This document shows, in pieces, positions 2,295 to 16,400 of a stretch of 37,918 bases of DNA. The stretch's first letter is position 1. Each line of letters opens with the position of its first letter. The DNA comes from Clostridia bacterium (GTDB lineage Bacteria > CBDUZB01 > JAGLHV01). The notes under the pieces were generated by a model. That model was not told the origin of the DNA. It saw only the letters and a list, made by a program, of their open reading frames with translations, and did no database searches. The position numbers and the translations under genes are program-made. Location: contig JAUVLC010000012.1 in assembly GCA_030595925.1 (NCBI GenBank), positions 1 through 37,918 of the forward strand, written 5' to 3'.

Positions 2295-2322
2295 CCTATA
2301 GGGGACGTTGTCAAGATGTCAA
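2295..2322 (-). promoter_or_regulatory. Possible hybrid promoter for the permease gene, -35 inside the element's inverted repeat
   Basis: On the minus strand TTGACA (2317-2322) sits 16 bp upstream of TATAGG (2295-2300). The -35 is inside the transposable element's terminal repeat and the -10 is in flanking DNA. The predicted transcript would start about 10 nt before the permease ATG. A 12-bp palindrome, cccctatagggg, spans 2293-2304 across the boundary. Confidence 0.4.
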
Positions 2323-3315
2323 GTTATAGTTTCCATTTTTAACAAGTTTCTCCCCTTTTGCTACTAATAATGATACTGCCTGCCGGCTTATCCCCAGTTC
2401 TTTCCCTATCTCTACTCCACTGAATCCAAGTTTTTGTTTGCCCCAATATGCTACCAACTCTTTAGCATAAGCAACTGAATTATTTTTCCCTTTCTTCTTT
2501 ATATCTTCCCTTTTAATTGAAAACATTTGACATACATGTTTTATTAGTTTATCAATATTCCATCCTTCCCGTCTCATCTTCTCCTTTTTATTAAACTCTT
2601 CTTCCCATTCTTTTAACGCCTGAGTTACAAATTCTCCATCTCCTAATATTCGTTCATCTCCCTGCCATCTTGTTTTCATTTTTCTTAATATCTGTATGCC
2701 CGACCATCCACCGGCACTGCGCTTTAGTCCCCCCCCAATCAAATCTGCCCGCCGCCCCATCTTCCGTCCATCTTCTATAAAACTCAGATAATTTTTACGC
2801 GCTGCTTCTTTTTTCTCCCCAAAGAGTGAAAGTACTTCCTCCACAATGTACCAGTCTTTTTTAGTTGTTCCCACAATATCTGAATGCCCTGTCCAAAGAT
2901 AATTATTCAATTCTGCTATGGTCATGACCACACCACTGCGTAATGGATTAAGATGGATATATCTTACTAACTCTTTAAAATAGACATCTTCCTGACACAA
3001 TATTGACTTATACCTATTTTGCACTAAATACCCGACCCTGTGATGCCTCCTATTAAAATAGCCCACATAGCCACTCATCAATCTACGCATAAAATCACTA
3101 ATTGGTTTTTTGCCACTTTGAATTAATAAGTGAAAATGGTTATACATAAGAGCCCATGCATAGCAACGACTACCAGTTTTTGCCAATGCTTTTGCTAATC
3201 TTTGTAAAAATTCTTTTCTATCGGCATCATCAATAAATATTGCTCGTCGTTCTATACCACGCACTATTATATGATACAATGCTCCCGGTAATTCTAATCT
3301 TCTATTTCTTGGCAT
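2311..3315 (-). CDS. Y1_Tnp (IS200-like/RAYT-type) transposase with C-terminal helix-turn-helix
   Basis: The N-terminal third is a Y1 HUH single-strand nuclease. The metal-binding motif is NHFHLLI (H60, H62), and the candidate nucleophile is Y119 in VRYIHLNPLRSG, the usual RAYT-type context. The family core is about 150-200 aa. Here an extra C-terminal part (about 255-334) has a DnaA/HTH-like stretch ending ELGISRQAVSLLVAKGEKLV, probably DNA binding. The stop codon and the last four sense codons (NLTS) lie within the element's inverted repeat. The gene has a strong promoter so close that the mRNA may be leaderless, and no Shine-Dalgarno site precedes the ATG. Confidence 0.88.
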   Translation of the reverse strand: MPRNRRLELPGALYHIIVRGIERRAIFIDDADRKEFLQRLAKALAKTGSRCYAWALMYNHFHLLIQSGKKPISDFMRRLMSGYVGYFNRRHHRVGYLVQNRYKSILCQEDVYFKELVRYIHLNPLRSGVVMTIAELNNYLWTGHSDIVGTTKKDWYIVEEVLSLFGEKKEAARKNYLSFIEDGRKMGRRADLIGGGLKRSAGGWSGIQILRKMKTRWQGDERILGDGEFVTQALKEWEEEFNKKEKMRREGWNIDKLIKHVCQMFSIKREDIKKKGKNNSVAYAKELVAYWGKQKLGFSGVEIGKELGISRQAVSLLVAKGEKLVKNGNYNLTS

Positions 3316-12281: not shown

Positions 12282-12570
12282 GTAATGTCAAAAATATCTG
12301 CACATTTCTGTTCTGATTTCTGTCCATGTAACTACAGGCTTTCTAGAGTAAGCCTGCGTATAATTAGCTCCTGTTGCACAAAGCCCATGTCAGGTCGGAG
12401 GACAGATTGTATCACAATCCCTTTTTTGGTAGTCGCAGGCTAAAGCCTGCGAAAAATCTCCAACGATAACGCAGGTTAAAGCCTGCGGCTACCTCCCCCT
12501 ATTTACAAAAGATTTTCCCTTTATCTACAAACTTCTTTCTGTTTTTCTTTCATACCTTTTTTGACACTAC
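12282..12570. mobile_element. 289-bp MITE with gtaatgtcaaaa-type ends, possibly related to the RAYT element
   Basis: The left end gtaatgtcaaaaa (12282-12294) faces tttttgacactac (12558-12570), its complement with one mismatch. The same ends border the RAYT element at 14099-14744. Inside are a REP-like hairpin (near 12349-12372), a fragment resembling the left end of the other MITE family (acagattgtatcacaatc, 12404-12421), and a full REPIN (12428-12493). No transposase remnant is recognised. It lies just upstream of the GH94 gene. Confidence 0.6.
12428..12493. repeat. REPIN: inverted pair of GTAG-footed REP hairpins
   Basis: Left arm 12428-12451 is GGTAGT plus cgcaggctaaagcctgcg. Right arm 12470-12493 is cgcaggttaaagcctgcg plus GCTACC. 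It is the cleanest copy in the window. The hairpin stem matches those at the RAYT element ends. Confidence 0.75.
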
Positions 12571-12792: not shown

Positions 12793-14073
12793 TTAATTTT
12801 TTTTATTATTCAGACAGGGAAAGGCTATAGTAACTATTGCTCCTTTAGGCTTTACATTATCTATTCTAATCCATCCTTTGTGGTCATCAATAATCCTCTT
12901 CACAATAGATAAACCTAAACCAATACCTTCTTCTTTAGTAGTAAAAAAAGGCTCAAACAGTTTATTCTTATTATCCTCGGATATTCCCTCTCCTTCATCC
13001 GTAATTTCTATTTGTATATCTTTATCCTTCTGCTTAGTACTAATTTTTATATTTCCTCCATTAGGCATTACCTGAATAGCATTTAAAAATAAATTTAAAA
13101 ATACCTGTTTTATTTGTCCCTTATCAGCCCGAACAAAAGATAATGGTAAAAATTCCTTTTCTATTATTATACTCCATTCTTTTATTTCCCCGGAAATCAA
13201 AGCAATAATTTCTTCCAGGACATGATTTATATCTACGCAGGAAAATTCCGGTTGTTTAGGACGAGCAAAATCAAAGAACCGATTAATAATTTGATTAACC
13301 CTTTCTACTTCATCTTCAATGACTTTAATATCTTTTTTCGCCATTTCATTATGCTGAATTTCCTTAGCCAGGGAATGAACTAATAGTTTGATACTGGTTA
13401 AGGGATTTTTTATCTCATGGGCAATCCCGGCACTAAGTTTTCCTAAAGCAGCTAATTTTTCCGATTGAATAAGTTTATCTTGTGTCTTTTTTAAATCCTC
13501 GGTAGCAATTTTAACTTTTTCTTCTAATTGGGTATTAAATGACTTTAATTCATCATACATTTTTGCATTTTCCAGGGCCAGGCCTGCCTGATTGGCAAAA
13601 GTAATGAGCGATTCAAATTTTTCCGGCGTGATTATCCGGTCGCTAAAAAGATTGTCCGCAGTTATTGCACCTAAGACCTTATCCCTGCCCAAAAGCGGTG
13701 CTACTGCAAAAGATTTAAGTCCAAAGAGTTCTTTCAACTTTTTATTTACCCGCGAATCAGCAAGTGCATTTTCAATGATAAAAGCTTTTTTTTCCAGCAC
13801 TGAACGGGCAACCACACTATTTTTCTCATCCAAAGGCAAACGAATATCTTTAATTTTCTTTTTCTCTATTCCTATAGCTATCTTACATTCAAGTTCTTTT
13901 TTTTGTTCATTAATCAGATAAAGCCTGGTGCGGTCAAATCCGATAACCCTGGTCACCCCTTCCAGAATCAAATGGAGAATCTGTTCCAGGTCCAAGGTCT
14001 GCATTGATTTGCTTATTTCATGTAAAGCAGACAATTCCCTTAATCTTTTTACTTCCTGCTGAACATTTTTCAT
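12793..14073 (-). CDS. Soluble sensor histidine kinase with N-terminal GAF domain
   Basis: Residues of about 20-170 are a GAF sensor domain, a coiled coil spans about 170-210, then HisKA with phospho-acceptor H219 in GIAHEIKNPLTS. The ATPase domain has the N box (LFLNAIQVMPNGG, N331), the G1 box DEGEGIS (359-365), the F box LFEPFFTTK and the G2 box GIGLGLSIVK. This is the NtrB-like arrangement of kinases that serve sigma-54 regulators. There is no transmembrane segment, so the signal is cytoplasmic. No response regulator is in the window. The gene follows a sigma-54-like gene with a RAYT element between them; a GGGAG ribosome site precedes the ATG. Confidence 0.92.
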   Translation of the reverse strand: MKNVQQEVKRLRELSALHEISKSMQTLDLEQILHLILEGVTRVIGFDRTRLYLINEQKKELECKIAIGIEKKKIKDIRLPLDEKNSVVARSVLEKKAFIIENALADSRVNKKLKELFGLKSFAVAPLLGRDKVLGAITADNLFSDRIITPEKFESLITFANQAGLALENAKMYDELKSFNTQLEEKVKIATEDLKKTQDKLIQSEKLAALGKLSAGIAHEIKNPLTSIKLLVHSLAKEIQHNEMAKKDIKVIEDEVERVNQIINRFFDFARPKQPEFSCVDINHVLEEIIALISGEIKEWSIIIEKEFLPLSFVRADKGQIKQVFLNLFLNAIQVMPNGGNIKISTKQKDKDIQIEITDEGEGISEDNKNKLFEPFFTTKEEGIGLGLSIVKRIIDDHKGWIRIDNVKPKGAIVTIAFPCLNNKKN

Positions 14074-14098
14074 CGTTTACTCCCTTAAAAAAACTAAC

Positions 14099-14744
14099 GT
14101 AATGTCAAAAGTATTTTATTTTTTGGTAGACGCAGGCTTTAGCCTGTGTCTTTATGTAATAATTTCTTCTAAATCAAAATCCAACGAACCTTTAAACGCA
14201 TATTCTTCCCAATGAGCAATTAAACCTTTTCTTACGGGATTATCCAAAACATAGATTATATGTTTTTTTAAATCTTCGTTTTTTCTGTGAATATGGTCGT
14301 AAAAATCCTTCTGCCATCGTATTCCTTTTCTATTCTTTGATAACCAAAAACCTGTTTTTTGTTTAAATCTTACTATCATTCTCCATAAATCTGCTTCCTC
14401 TGAGTTCCCTTCTATAATCAGGTGTACATGGTTTAGCATAAATATATATACCCAGTTTTTACAATCATATTTATTCTTTATTTCTATCAGAATTTCTAAA
14501 AATTTGTCAACTATTTCTTTATCAACAAACAGAATCTTCTTTTCTTCAATACAGAAAGTAAAAGTTATTTTTACTTTACCCTTATAATAATCCAAAGGTA
14601 ATCTGTGTTTCCTTTCCCTACGCAGACTAAAGTCTGCGGCTACCGGATTTTCACAATTACTATTATTCCTTCCCTCATCATGAAAAAATTCTTTTTCATT
14701 TATAACACTTTTCTGAGTTTTTTTCATTTTATTTTTGACATTAC
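14099..14744 (-). mobile_element. 646-bp RAYT element with 12-bp inverted ends and REP arms
   Basis: Perfect 12-bp ends gtaatgtcaaaa (14099-14110) and ttttgacattac (14733-14744) enclose one RAYT gene. REP arms lie just inside: GGTAGA plus hairpin at 14125-14148, and hairpin plus CTACC at 14621-14644. The 9-mer aaaaactaa flanks it directly on both sides (14089-14097 and 14746-14754), which may be a target repeat or chance in AT-rich DNA. The right flank covers the stop codon of the sigma-54-like gene. A second, internally deleted copy lies at 15861-16137. Confidence 0.8.
14152..14727 (-). CDS. REP-associated tyrosine transposase (RAYT, Y1_Tnp)
   Basis: It is a Y1 HUH nuclease expected to cut REP hairpins as single strands. 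The HUH motif is MLNHVHLIIEG (H100, H102) and the candidate nucleophile is Y159 in IIYVLDNPVRKGLI, the RAYT family context. The recognised domain begins near residue 41. The first 40 residues are unusual because they are encoded partly by the element's right REP hairpin (14621-14644, residues about 28-36). Either the true start lies downstream at a non-ATG codon, or the REP has been incorporated into the coding region. The length (191 aa) fits RAYTs. The C-terminal end also survives in the deletion derivative at 15861-16137. Confidence 0.88.
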   Translation of the reverse strand: MKKTQKSVINEKEFFHDEGRNNSNCENPVAADFSLRRERKHRLPLDYYKGKVKITFTFCIEEKKILFVDKEIVDKFLEILIEIKNKYDCKNWVYIFMLNHVHLIIEGNSEEADLWRMIVRFKQKTGFWLSKNRKGIRWQKDFYDHIHRKNEDLKKHIIYVLDNPVRKGLIAHWEEYAFKGSLDFDLEEIIT

Positions 14745-14750
14745 CAAAAA

Positions 14751-15836
14751 CTAATTAGAATTAATTTCTCTTCGATAATCATTTACAGACCTGCGGGAAA
14801 GGTTTATCCGAAATTGCTTTTTTATTATATCAGTCAGTTGTCGATCAGTAAGTTTATCTTTTTTTTCGGCAAGAATTTCCTGCAAAAATTCTTTTATTAT
14901 TGTTTTTCTGTCCGGAAAAAAATCTTTTATAGCTATTTCTTTTCCCCATGGTACTTGCACACTTTTAAGTTTAATCGCCCGAGAGATAAGACTGGAATCT
15001 TTTTCTATAATTTGTGCTATCTCTTTTTGAGTAAAGACTTTTCGATCTTTTTTATTACCGCTAAGTAAAAATTTATTTTGCTTTTTAATTATTCCCTGCA
15101 AGATTTGATATAAAGTATTTCTCCTGCTATTAATCAATTCCAATGTTTTAGTTAAATTATCCAGTTCTTTTATTTGCCTTGAATTAAATTTCCCTTTTTT
15201 CTTTAATTGAGTCAATTTCTCATAATCAATTGAATATTTTCCCTTAACATAACAAAAATCAAAATATCCTATCGAAAATCCATCCCGTTCTTTTTCAATG
15301 GAAGCAACCCGAGCATAAAATACCCGGGTGGAGGGATCGGTTATTGCCGGAATAGTAAAAGAACTCTGAATGGAAATATCATTAACCAAATCGATTATTT
15401 CAGTTACTTTTTCTATTTTCATACTACATTCTTCGGCTATTTCTTCCAGACTTAAATTATCCCGGCAATCCAGGAAATATTCCCTGAATTTGGCAATTCC
15501 CAACTGTTTGATAACTTTAATTATATCTTCCCTTCCTTCCAGCAATGATTCTATGGAAACTTCTGATTTATCAGCCAAAATTTCTTCTTTAAGTTCATAT
15601 GCCCGGATTATTTTTGTTTTAGGAAATTTAACAAAAGAAATAACCTTTTCTTTTTTATCTTTAAAACTAACAGGATAAGTTAATTTTTTAAATAAAGGAC
15701 TCTGCTCTATATGCTTTATAAGTTCCTTAAATTCCACTTCCTTTAAATCCATCAAATCCGCTAACTGCATCCGGCCAATAAGTTTTGGTAAATGCTTGAG
15801 TTTTTGGATAGAAACATTTCTTAAAGACTGTGGCAT
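14751..15836 (-). CDS. rpoN: Divergent, shortened sigma-54 (RpoN) family factor
   Basis: The C-terminus carries an RpoN-box-like sequence SRRSVNDYRR (347-356; canonical ARRTVAKYRE), preceded by the sigma-54 HTH region (KVFTQKEIAQIIEKDSSLISRAIK then VPWGKE, about 257-297). The N-terminus (QLADLMDL...FKELIKHIEQSPLFKKL, 24-54) resembles region I, but lacks its usual glutamine richness. At 361 aa it is about 100 residues shorter than typical RpoN and lacks an obvious acidic region II. It should direct RNA polymerase to -24/-12 promoters with an activator ATPase, none of which is in the window. The ribosome site GGGAG stands 8 nt before the ATG. The gene is bracketed by a RAYT element and its deletion derivative. 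Confidence 0.82.
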   Translation of the reverse strand: MPQSLRNVSIQKLKHLPKLIGRMQLADLMDLKEVEFKELIKHIEQSPLFKKLTYPVSFKDKKEKVISFVKFPKTKIIRAYELKEEILADKSEVSIESLLEGREDIIKVIKQLGIAKFREYFLDCRDNLSLEEIAEECSMKIEKVTEIIDLVNDISIQSSFTIPAITDPSTRVFYARVASIEKERDGFSIGYFDFCYVKGKYSIDYEKLTQLKKKGKFNSRQIKELDNLTKTLELINSRRNTLYQILQGIIKKQNKFLLSGNKKDRKVFTQKEIAQIIEKDSSLISRAIKLKSVQVPWGKEIAIKDFFPDRKTIIKEFLQEILAEKKDKLTDRQLTDIIKKQFRINLSRRSVNDYRREINSN

Positions 15837-15860
15837 TATTTTATCTCCCTACCGAGCAAA

Positions 15861-16137
15861 GTAATGTTAAAAATGTTTTATTTTTTGGTAGCCGCAGGCT
15901 TTCTTGTCCGCCTGTGGAGGAAACCTGCGTTTTTATATAATAATTTCTTCTAAATCAAAATCCAATGAATCTTTAAACACATACTCTTCCCAATTATCAA
16001 TTATAACAATTTAAGGCTAATCTGTATCTCCGTCCCCTACGCAGGCTAAAGCCTGCGGCTACCAACTTCCCACAATTACTATCATTACCCCATCAACAAA
16101 AGGGTTGTAGTGTTTTTTATCGTCGAACTTAACATTT
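15861..16137 (-). mobile_element. Internally deleted copy of the RAYT element (MITE derivative)
   Basis: The left part (gtaatgttaaaa at 15861, REP arm from 15887, then ataatttcttctaaatcaaa) aligns with 14099-14225, including the codons for the transposase C-terminus. The right part (gctaatctgtatctccg, then the REP arm at 16040-16063 and cacaattactatcatta) aligns with 14590-14690. About 350 bp of the transposase gene is missing. The left REP hairpin carries an inserted cttgtccgcctgtggagga, also seen at 34482-34525. Its left end is only 24 bp upstream of the sigma-54-like ATG. The right end is poorly defined near ttaacatt (16129-16136). Confidence 0.78.
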
Positions 16138-16230
16138 TAATTTTATTTTGGAAAATGTTAATTGAACAGTAATATAATAGGACTAATTTTGCTTTTATAT
16201 GGTCGATATTAAACATTATTTTCTTAAACA

Positions 16231-16400
16231 TGTCAATAGACAACAGACAAAAACAGATTTAGTCCATAGTCCACAGTCGATAGTCCATAGACAACAGATA
16301 ACAGAAAGTTATTAGTTATTAGTTAACTACAAAAAAACAAAGATAAATACTGGCACAAAGGAAAAGACAACAGATAGTCCATAGACAACGGAATAAAGAC
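16231..16400. repeat. Degenerate heptamer tandem repeat (agtccat-type)
   Basis: From 16261 to about 16302 the unit agtccat recurs every 7 bp with variants (agtccac, agtcgat, agacaac, agataac). The motif atagtccatagacaac reappears at 16374-16389. This stretch has no ORF. The gap 16138-16595 also holds ttaactac-type AT-rich sequence without recognisable signals. Confidence 0.6.

Follow-up and report, generated by a model that had tools for sequence, protein, structure and literature searches.

The analysed DNA, hereafter the window, is a stretch of 37,918 nucleotides from a Clostridia bacterium. Within it lie three neighbouring genes with start codons at 15836, 14073 and 12256, and each of them carries one insertion, located 24, 25 and 25 nt upstream of the start codon, respectively (Table 1). 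The first gene encodes a protein with a sigma-54-type DNA-binding domain and an RpoN box (SRRSVNDYRRE) at its C-terminus, which scored only 87 bits against the full-length RpoN model TIGR02395 (cut-off 277); by its sequence, the protein is a short divergent relative of RpoN. A paralogue with 41% identity is present in the same genome (C161:7380-8477), where it is followed by an ORF resembling a response regulator and carries no element. Elsewhere in the window, another Y1 transposase is encoded at positions 2311-3315 (minus strand), in fusion with the C-terminal domain of DnaA (PF01797, 2.3e-11; PF08299, 2.9e-8), and dispersed repeats of the unit ATAGTCCATAGACAACAGA occupy positions 16228-16400 between the deleted copy and a GAF-ANTAR gene.

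Table 1. Features of the locus and of related autonomous-type elements
Feature	Position	Strand	Remarks
Third element, same TIR family	12282..12570	-	different interior, 289 bp
Histidine-kinase gene	12793..14073	-	GAF + HisKA + HATPase
Shine-Dalgarno AAGGGAG of histidine-kinase gene	14080..14086	-	target of full element
Target-site duplication copy of full element, AAAAACTAA	14089..14097		one base off TIR
Full element	14099..14744	-	TIR-bounded, non-autonomous, carries RAYT/REP unit
Gene-proximal terminal inverted repeat (TIR), GTAATGTCAAAAGTA	14099..14113		93% complementary to 14730-14744
Left REP palindrome	14123..14149		GTAG foot
RAYT (REP-associated tyrosine transposase) ORF	14152..14727	-	191 aa, HUH motif NHVHLIIE
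Right REP palindrome (inverted)	14620..14644		inside RAYT reading frame
Distal TIR, TATTTTTGACATTAC	14730..14744
Target-site duplication copy of full element, AAAAACTAA	14746..14754		covers sigma-like stop codon
Short sigma-54-like gene	14751..15836	-	361 aa; Sigma54_DBD 2.6e-17
Shine-Dalgarno AGGGAG of sigma-like gene	15845..15850	-	target of deleted copy
Deleted (MITE) copy	15861..16158	-	right end decayed, end coordinate approximate (~16158)
Deletion junction	16001..16003		full element 14222^14582; 3-bp TTA microhomology
L229 element			1819 bp; Atribacteria; duplication TTTCAGAA
L220 element			1926 bp; Elusimicrobia
Decayed IS6-like copy in the host genome	C157:9140-10947		duplication TATTTGTA; 24 nt before ATG, behind AGGAG

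The preliminary description had placed a RAYT-bearing element at 14099-14744, and the ORF, the inverted ends and the two REP palindromes were all found there; as also described, the element abuts the end of the sigma-like gene, with 6 bp between the element and the stop codon. The inverted ends are 15 nt each and the target duplication is 9 bp. The ORF matched Pfam Y1_Tnp at 6.4e-7 and NCBIfam REP_Tyr_transpos at 5.6e-21 with 75 bits, slightly below the cut-off of 80, and the presence of a Y1 domain and an HUH motif next to inverted REPs with a GTAG foot marks it as a RAYT-type ORF. It is intact in two copies, the dN/dS ratio between which was 0.51, not a value that demonstrates strong constraint, and in both of them the right REP palindrome is translated in frame (VAADFSLR). 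Because the ORF opens at an ATG that is conserved on the inner side of the distal TIR, its first ~30 residues probably derive from the end of the element. Most simply, the RAYT would be a passenger of the element.

It had also been proposed that the full element and the deleted copy form a pair that mobilises the sigma-like gene. This was not supported, since the full element is flanked by its own duplication and sits at the kinase gene, indicating that it inserted singly. The duplication covers the sigma-like stop codon because the kinase gene was preceded by a gap of only ~20 bp prior to insertion, and this short gap accounts for the closeness to the stop codon without any link to the sigma-like gene. 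The apparent bracket is two independent insertions in one operon. No clear target duplication was found for the third element. Upstream homology with the two congeners, G001 and G002, stops at this element and different genes lie beyond it, so that the third copy probably marks a rearrangement breakpoint.

As for expression, a perfect TATAAT does occur at 16000-16005 near the deletion junction, but it has no -35 partner, and no sigma-70-like site that includes these positions was found. A TTGACA in the TIR was likewise rejected as an outward-facing -35 that would serve the following gene, because the -10 would overlap the Shine-Dalgarno sequence of the adjacent start. The elements may influence how the three genes are translated or how long their transcripts are.

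The element family and the deleted copy

We searched the genome that contains the window (2.6 Mb, 193 contigs) with the full element and the deleted copy and obtained 67 and 68 matching pieces, respectively. These copy numbers are lower bounds, since the assembly breaks within repeats at many contig ends; breaks of this kind were seen at C69, C91, C93, C96, C98, C108, C117 and C181. The family is bounded by GTARTGTCAAAA inverted repeats and flanked by ~8-bp target duplications, the element ends being A-GTAATGTCAAAA and G-GTAGTGTCAAAA, and the 12-mers GTAATGTCAAAA or GTAATGTTAAAA occur exactly at ~50 places in the genome. The shared ends enclose interiors of several types, including the RAYT/REP type, the 289-bp type (the third element of the window and C86), a 629-655-bp type (C44, C46 and C184) and others. 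At the distal ends of all sub-families, an ATG (ATGAAARAA) is conserved 4-6 nt inside the TIR, even where no gene follows. Eight-bp target duplications, one base off the TIR, were found at C12, C16, C178, C183 and C184. At a strict match of at least 7/8, six rows were obtained, compared with a shuffled mean of 0.7 and a maximum of 4 in 2000 shuffles; the six rows are five distinct elements, as the palindromic C16 element is counted twice. A clear target duplication was absent from many two-ended copies, perhaps owing to recombination or decay.

Alignment confirmed the homology between the full element and the deleted copy, with contiguous matches at 78-80% identity to positions 1-124 and 484-569 of the full element and 359 bp absent. 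The deleted copy has the same orientation as the full element, starts exactly 24 bp upstream of the sigma-like ATG, and carries a 19-bp insert in its left REP loop. It had been described as retaining both ends together with the C-terminal codons and REP arms of the RAYT unit; the codons, both REP arms and the left end are indeed there, but the right end is decayed. BLAST similarity ends at position 569 of the full element, beyond which we saw only a weak 18-bp match near 16135-16152; neither a TIR nor a target duplication could be recognised at that end.

The deleted copy had further been taken to show directly how a MITE arises from a RAYT. The same 124^484 junction, however, is present at at least nine places in this genome (C16, C32, C75, C123, C129, C152, C163, C165 and C183) and also in the congener G002 (C46), and the insertion upstream of the C123 gene, which has this junction, is orthologous in both species. 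With the junction at no fewer than 10 loci of two species, the copy therefore arrived already deleted and, as judged from this shared junction, is a member of an established MITE subfamily older than the species split. Other internal junctions in the family (for example, 59/504, 132/497, 42/568 and 40/540) vary, and such deletions therefore arose repeatedly.

The insertions are not all ancient, as the orthologous sites in G002 are often empty. When orthologues of element-bearing genes were compared over their first 120 nt (about 80-98% identical), ~14 lacked the element in G002 and 6 had it. At the C178 site, for instance, the host genome has TTAAAGAGTGATA-element-GAGCGATATAAAAGG, whereas G002 has an uninterrupted TTAAAGAGTGATATAACGG.

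Insertion position relative to Shine-Dalgarno sequences

The position and orientation seen at the three genes of the window recur throughout the host genome. Of 58 gene-proximal ends, 48 are followed at 20-29 nt by a start codon that has a Shine-Dalgarno sequence; the distance from end to start in these 48 averages 24.3 nt (sd 1.5), being most often 24 nt (n = 19) and in 11 cases 25 nt, and the 15th base outward from the end is G in 42. The elements have one orientation throughout, with the Shine-Dalgarno sequence between the element end and the start codon. Only 4 of 22 distal ends had any such start, three of them at 23-25 nt, and at least some of these are probably proximal ends missorted by the filter. 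The ORFs used were mechanically called.

We then scanned the genomes of 84,980 species for TTTTTGACATTAC with GGAGG and ATG behind it at the same spacing and obtained 54 stretches; Elusimicrobia, Desantisbacteria and others had more than one or two in a single genome. In six of these genomes, which belong to other candidate phyla (Elusimicrobia, Desantisbacteria and Atribacteria), every exact occurrence of the 13-mer TTTTTGACATTAC was collected without any requirement for a nearby gene, which gave 46 ends versus 4 for the reversed control. For 34 of the 46, a start codon preceded by a Shine-Dalgarno sequence lay at a distance of 22-26 nt, a fraction that may be flattered by the choice of genomes through the scan; the register, with all but one of the 34 having G at offset 15, is not subject to this effect. 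About eight of the remaining 12 look like distal ends or starts missed by the filter.

As for the anchor of this register, the ATG was rejected, since its distance varies (sd 1.5 nt) while the G at offset 15 is fixed, and so was the transcription start, since the full element sits within an operon and over the sigma-like stop codon. Within the window, 26 noncoding GGAG motifs away from starts stand against 10 GGAG motifs in Shine-Dalgarno sequences, and a 20-nt motif model that left out the start codon gave, at its median score, 204 sites in coding sequence, 23 in other noncoding sequence and 26 near starts. Both motifs are thus too common away from starts for the motif alone to settle the exact signal. 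Selection against insertions in coding sequence explains the excess of unused sites in part, not in full.

Instead of targeting, such selection, or regulation exerted by the elements from within the 5' UTR, might also underlie the fixed position itself. Insertions within genes would be purged, and a stem formed between the two TIRs in a 5' UTR could affect translation. However, selection gives a lower limit near 20 nt and not a sharp upper limit near 27 nt, it leaves the base-precise register at offset 15 (42/48 and 33/34) unexplained, and the same geometry is found in full insertion sequences and in distant plasmid copies (see below). We therefore regard this explanation of the position as improbable.

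Autonomous elements and proposed mechanism

Two stretches from the scan, L229 and L220, contain complete elements whose ends are those of the family in the window. These elements of 1.8-1.9 kb encode a transposase with a DDE_Tnp_IS240 domain (2.4e-10), which matched the NCBIfam IS6 model at 9.8e-17 with 61 bits, far below the cut-off of 125. The L229 ORF is 483 aa long, with an N-terminal extension and a CxxC zinc ribbon (CRVC...CKVC...CDNDRC). In the host genome, the sole copy of an IS6-like transposase (C157) is frameshifted. Plasmids from Geobacillus (three), Levilactobacillus brevis KB290 and Pediococcus damnosus encode relatives with 35-37% identity. All five copies with a recognisable end have ends of the form TTTGACA-N-TACC upstream of a Shine-Dalgarno sequence; in four the start codon follows at 24-25 nt, the annotated TTG of G. 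kaustophilus being at 19 nt, and four have perfect 8-bp duplications. At one further locus, in three lactobacillus plasmids, no recognisable left end was found, and a search of viral contigs for relatives of the transposase gave none.

These whole elements bear on the question of what moves the copies in the window. An intact RAYT ORF with its HUH motif in two copies, and REPs with a GTAG foot on both sides, would be expected if the RAYT spread the elements through the REP hairpins by single-strand transfer, in the manner of REPINs or BIMEs. IS200-type enzymes work without TIRs and, like a RAYT, do not duplicate the target. The elements here have both TIRs and duplications, outside the REPs, and the same TIRs and target position are found on interiors without a RAYT and on insertion sequences with a DDE transposase. 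The MITE is also present in G002, yet blastn with the full element gave only partial matches there. Spread by the RAYT is therefore largely refuted and very unlikely. Even smaller is the likelihood we give to a composite transposon that carried the sigma-like gene between the two copies. The copies do flank the gene as direct repeats and, according to an IS6 review (PMC7986276), short IS6-family elements mobilise passenger DNA between direct copies. Against this, the full element has a target duplication of its own, the two copies sit at the Shine-Dalgarno sequences of different genes, the outer ends share no duplication, and a third independent copy is present at 12282. The gene itself may have been gained by transfer, as both congeners gave no match to either sigma-54-like paralogue.

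It is highly probable, in our judgement, that the full element and the deleted copy are non-autonomous derivatives of GTARTGTCAAAA-ended insertion sequences, moved by an IS6-like enzyme to positions upstream of Shine-Dalgarno sequences. The ends, the duplications, the fixed position and orientation, the empty orthologous sites, the shared junction and the autonomous elements with the same ends were all observed; we infer that it is the IS6-like enzyme which mobilises the MITEs, that the transposase reads the Shine-Dalgarno sequence and that the RAYT is a passenger. In the proposed mechanism, a long zinc-ribbon IS6-like DDE transposase would act in trans on both elements, pairing the two ends with a target marked 14-18 bp from the joining point, at the GGAG core of the Shine-Dalgarno sequence, and joining with an 8-bp stagger would yield the ~8-bp target duplication. 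The transposase-upstream end would always face the gene, ~24 nt from the start codon, and insertion would leave the ribosome-binding site and the reading frame intact. The full element, with its RAYT/REP unit, and the deleted copy, a member of the older MITE subfamily minus 359 bp, would have arrived separately at two neighbouring genes of one operon. The target may be read as DNA with extra context or with help from the translation machinery. Because GGAG and the 20-nt model are too common away from starts for such precision, we also considered guidance of the transposase by the translation machinery (the 30S subunit or the anti-Shine-Dalgarno end of 16S rRNA) instead of by the double-stranded Shine-Dalgarno sequence, which we think unlikely.

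An element that recognises Shine-Dalgarno sequences would have thousands of sites per genome while sparing the coding sequence and the ribosome-binding site. Such targeting would account for MITEs upstream of dozens of host genes, could serve as a natural tool for placing DNA before genes, and raises the testable question of how a DDE transposase picks a gene-start signal. The RAYT, for its part, seems to be carried along by a DDE element.

Comparison with known systems

The elements resemble the long IS6-like insertion sequences, which form clades VII/VIII of Harmer and Hall 2019 (PMC6807381) and clades h/i of the 2021 IS6 review (PMC7986276), for example ISHahy6, ISHco2 and ISTet2. As described in these papers, that group is 1.7-1.9 kb long with 8-bp target duplications and has transposases of ~450-490 aa with a zinc ribbon and an N-terminal extension; its TIRs have G7, together with G2 on the side upstream of the transposase gene or G1 on the opposite side, and their outermost bases are non-complementary (PMC6807381). 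The insertion sequences found here have the features of clade VIII/i, namely, an IS240/IS6-type DDE domain, a zinc-ribbon transposase with an N-terminal extension (483 aa in L229), 8-bp duplications and the TIR bases, and by these sequence features they agree with the long IS6-like group in length, duplication and TIRs. They differ in that most copies here are MITEs, of which one bears a RAYT. The family is widespread; insertion targeted to, or adjacent to, a Shine-Dalgarno sequence or ribosome-binding site was not found described in the open-licence literature, nor by targeted term searches of PMC6807381 and PMC7986276. IS26 and IS6 proper share the IS240-type DDE domain and the 8-bp duplication, but have a short transposase without a zinc ribbon and the TIR GGTTCTGTTGCAAA, according to PMC6807381.

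RAYT/REP systems and REPINs are similar in the RAYT ORF with an HUH motif and in the inverted REPs with a GTAG foot. REPINs and BIMEs end in REP hairpins and have no TIRs or target duplications, whereas the unit here is enclosed in DDE-type TIRs and duplications lying outside the REPs and was apparently spread by those ends.

Tn7, which uses an att site by glmS, and Ty3, which uses the starts of tRNA genes, are targeted elements. Like them, the elements described here insert into safe havens beside genes at a fixed place and in a fixed orientation. Unlike them, the mark would be a translation-initiation signal common to most genes, offering thousands of sites.
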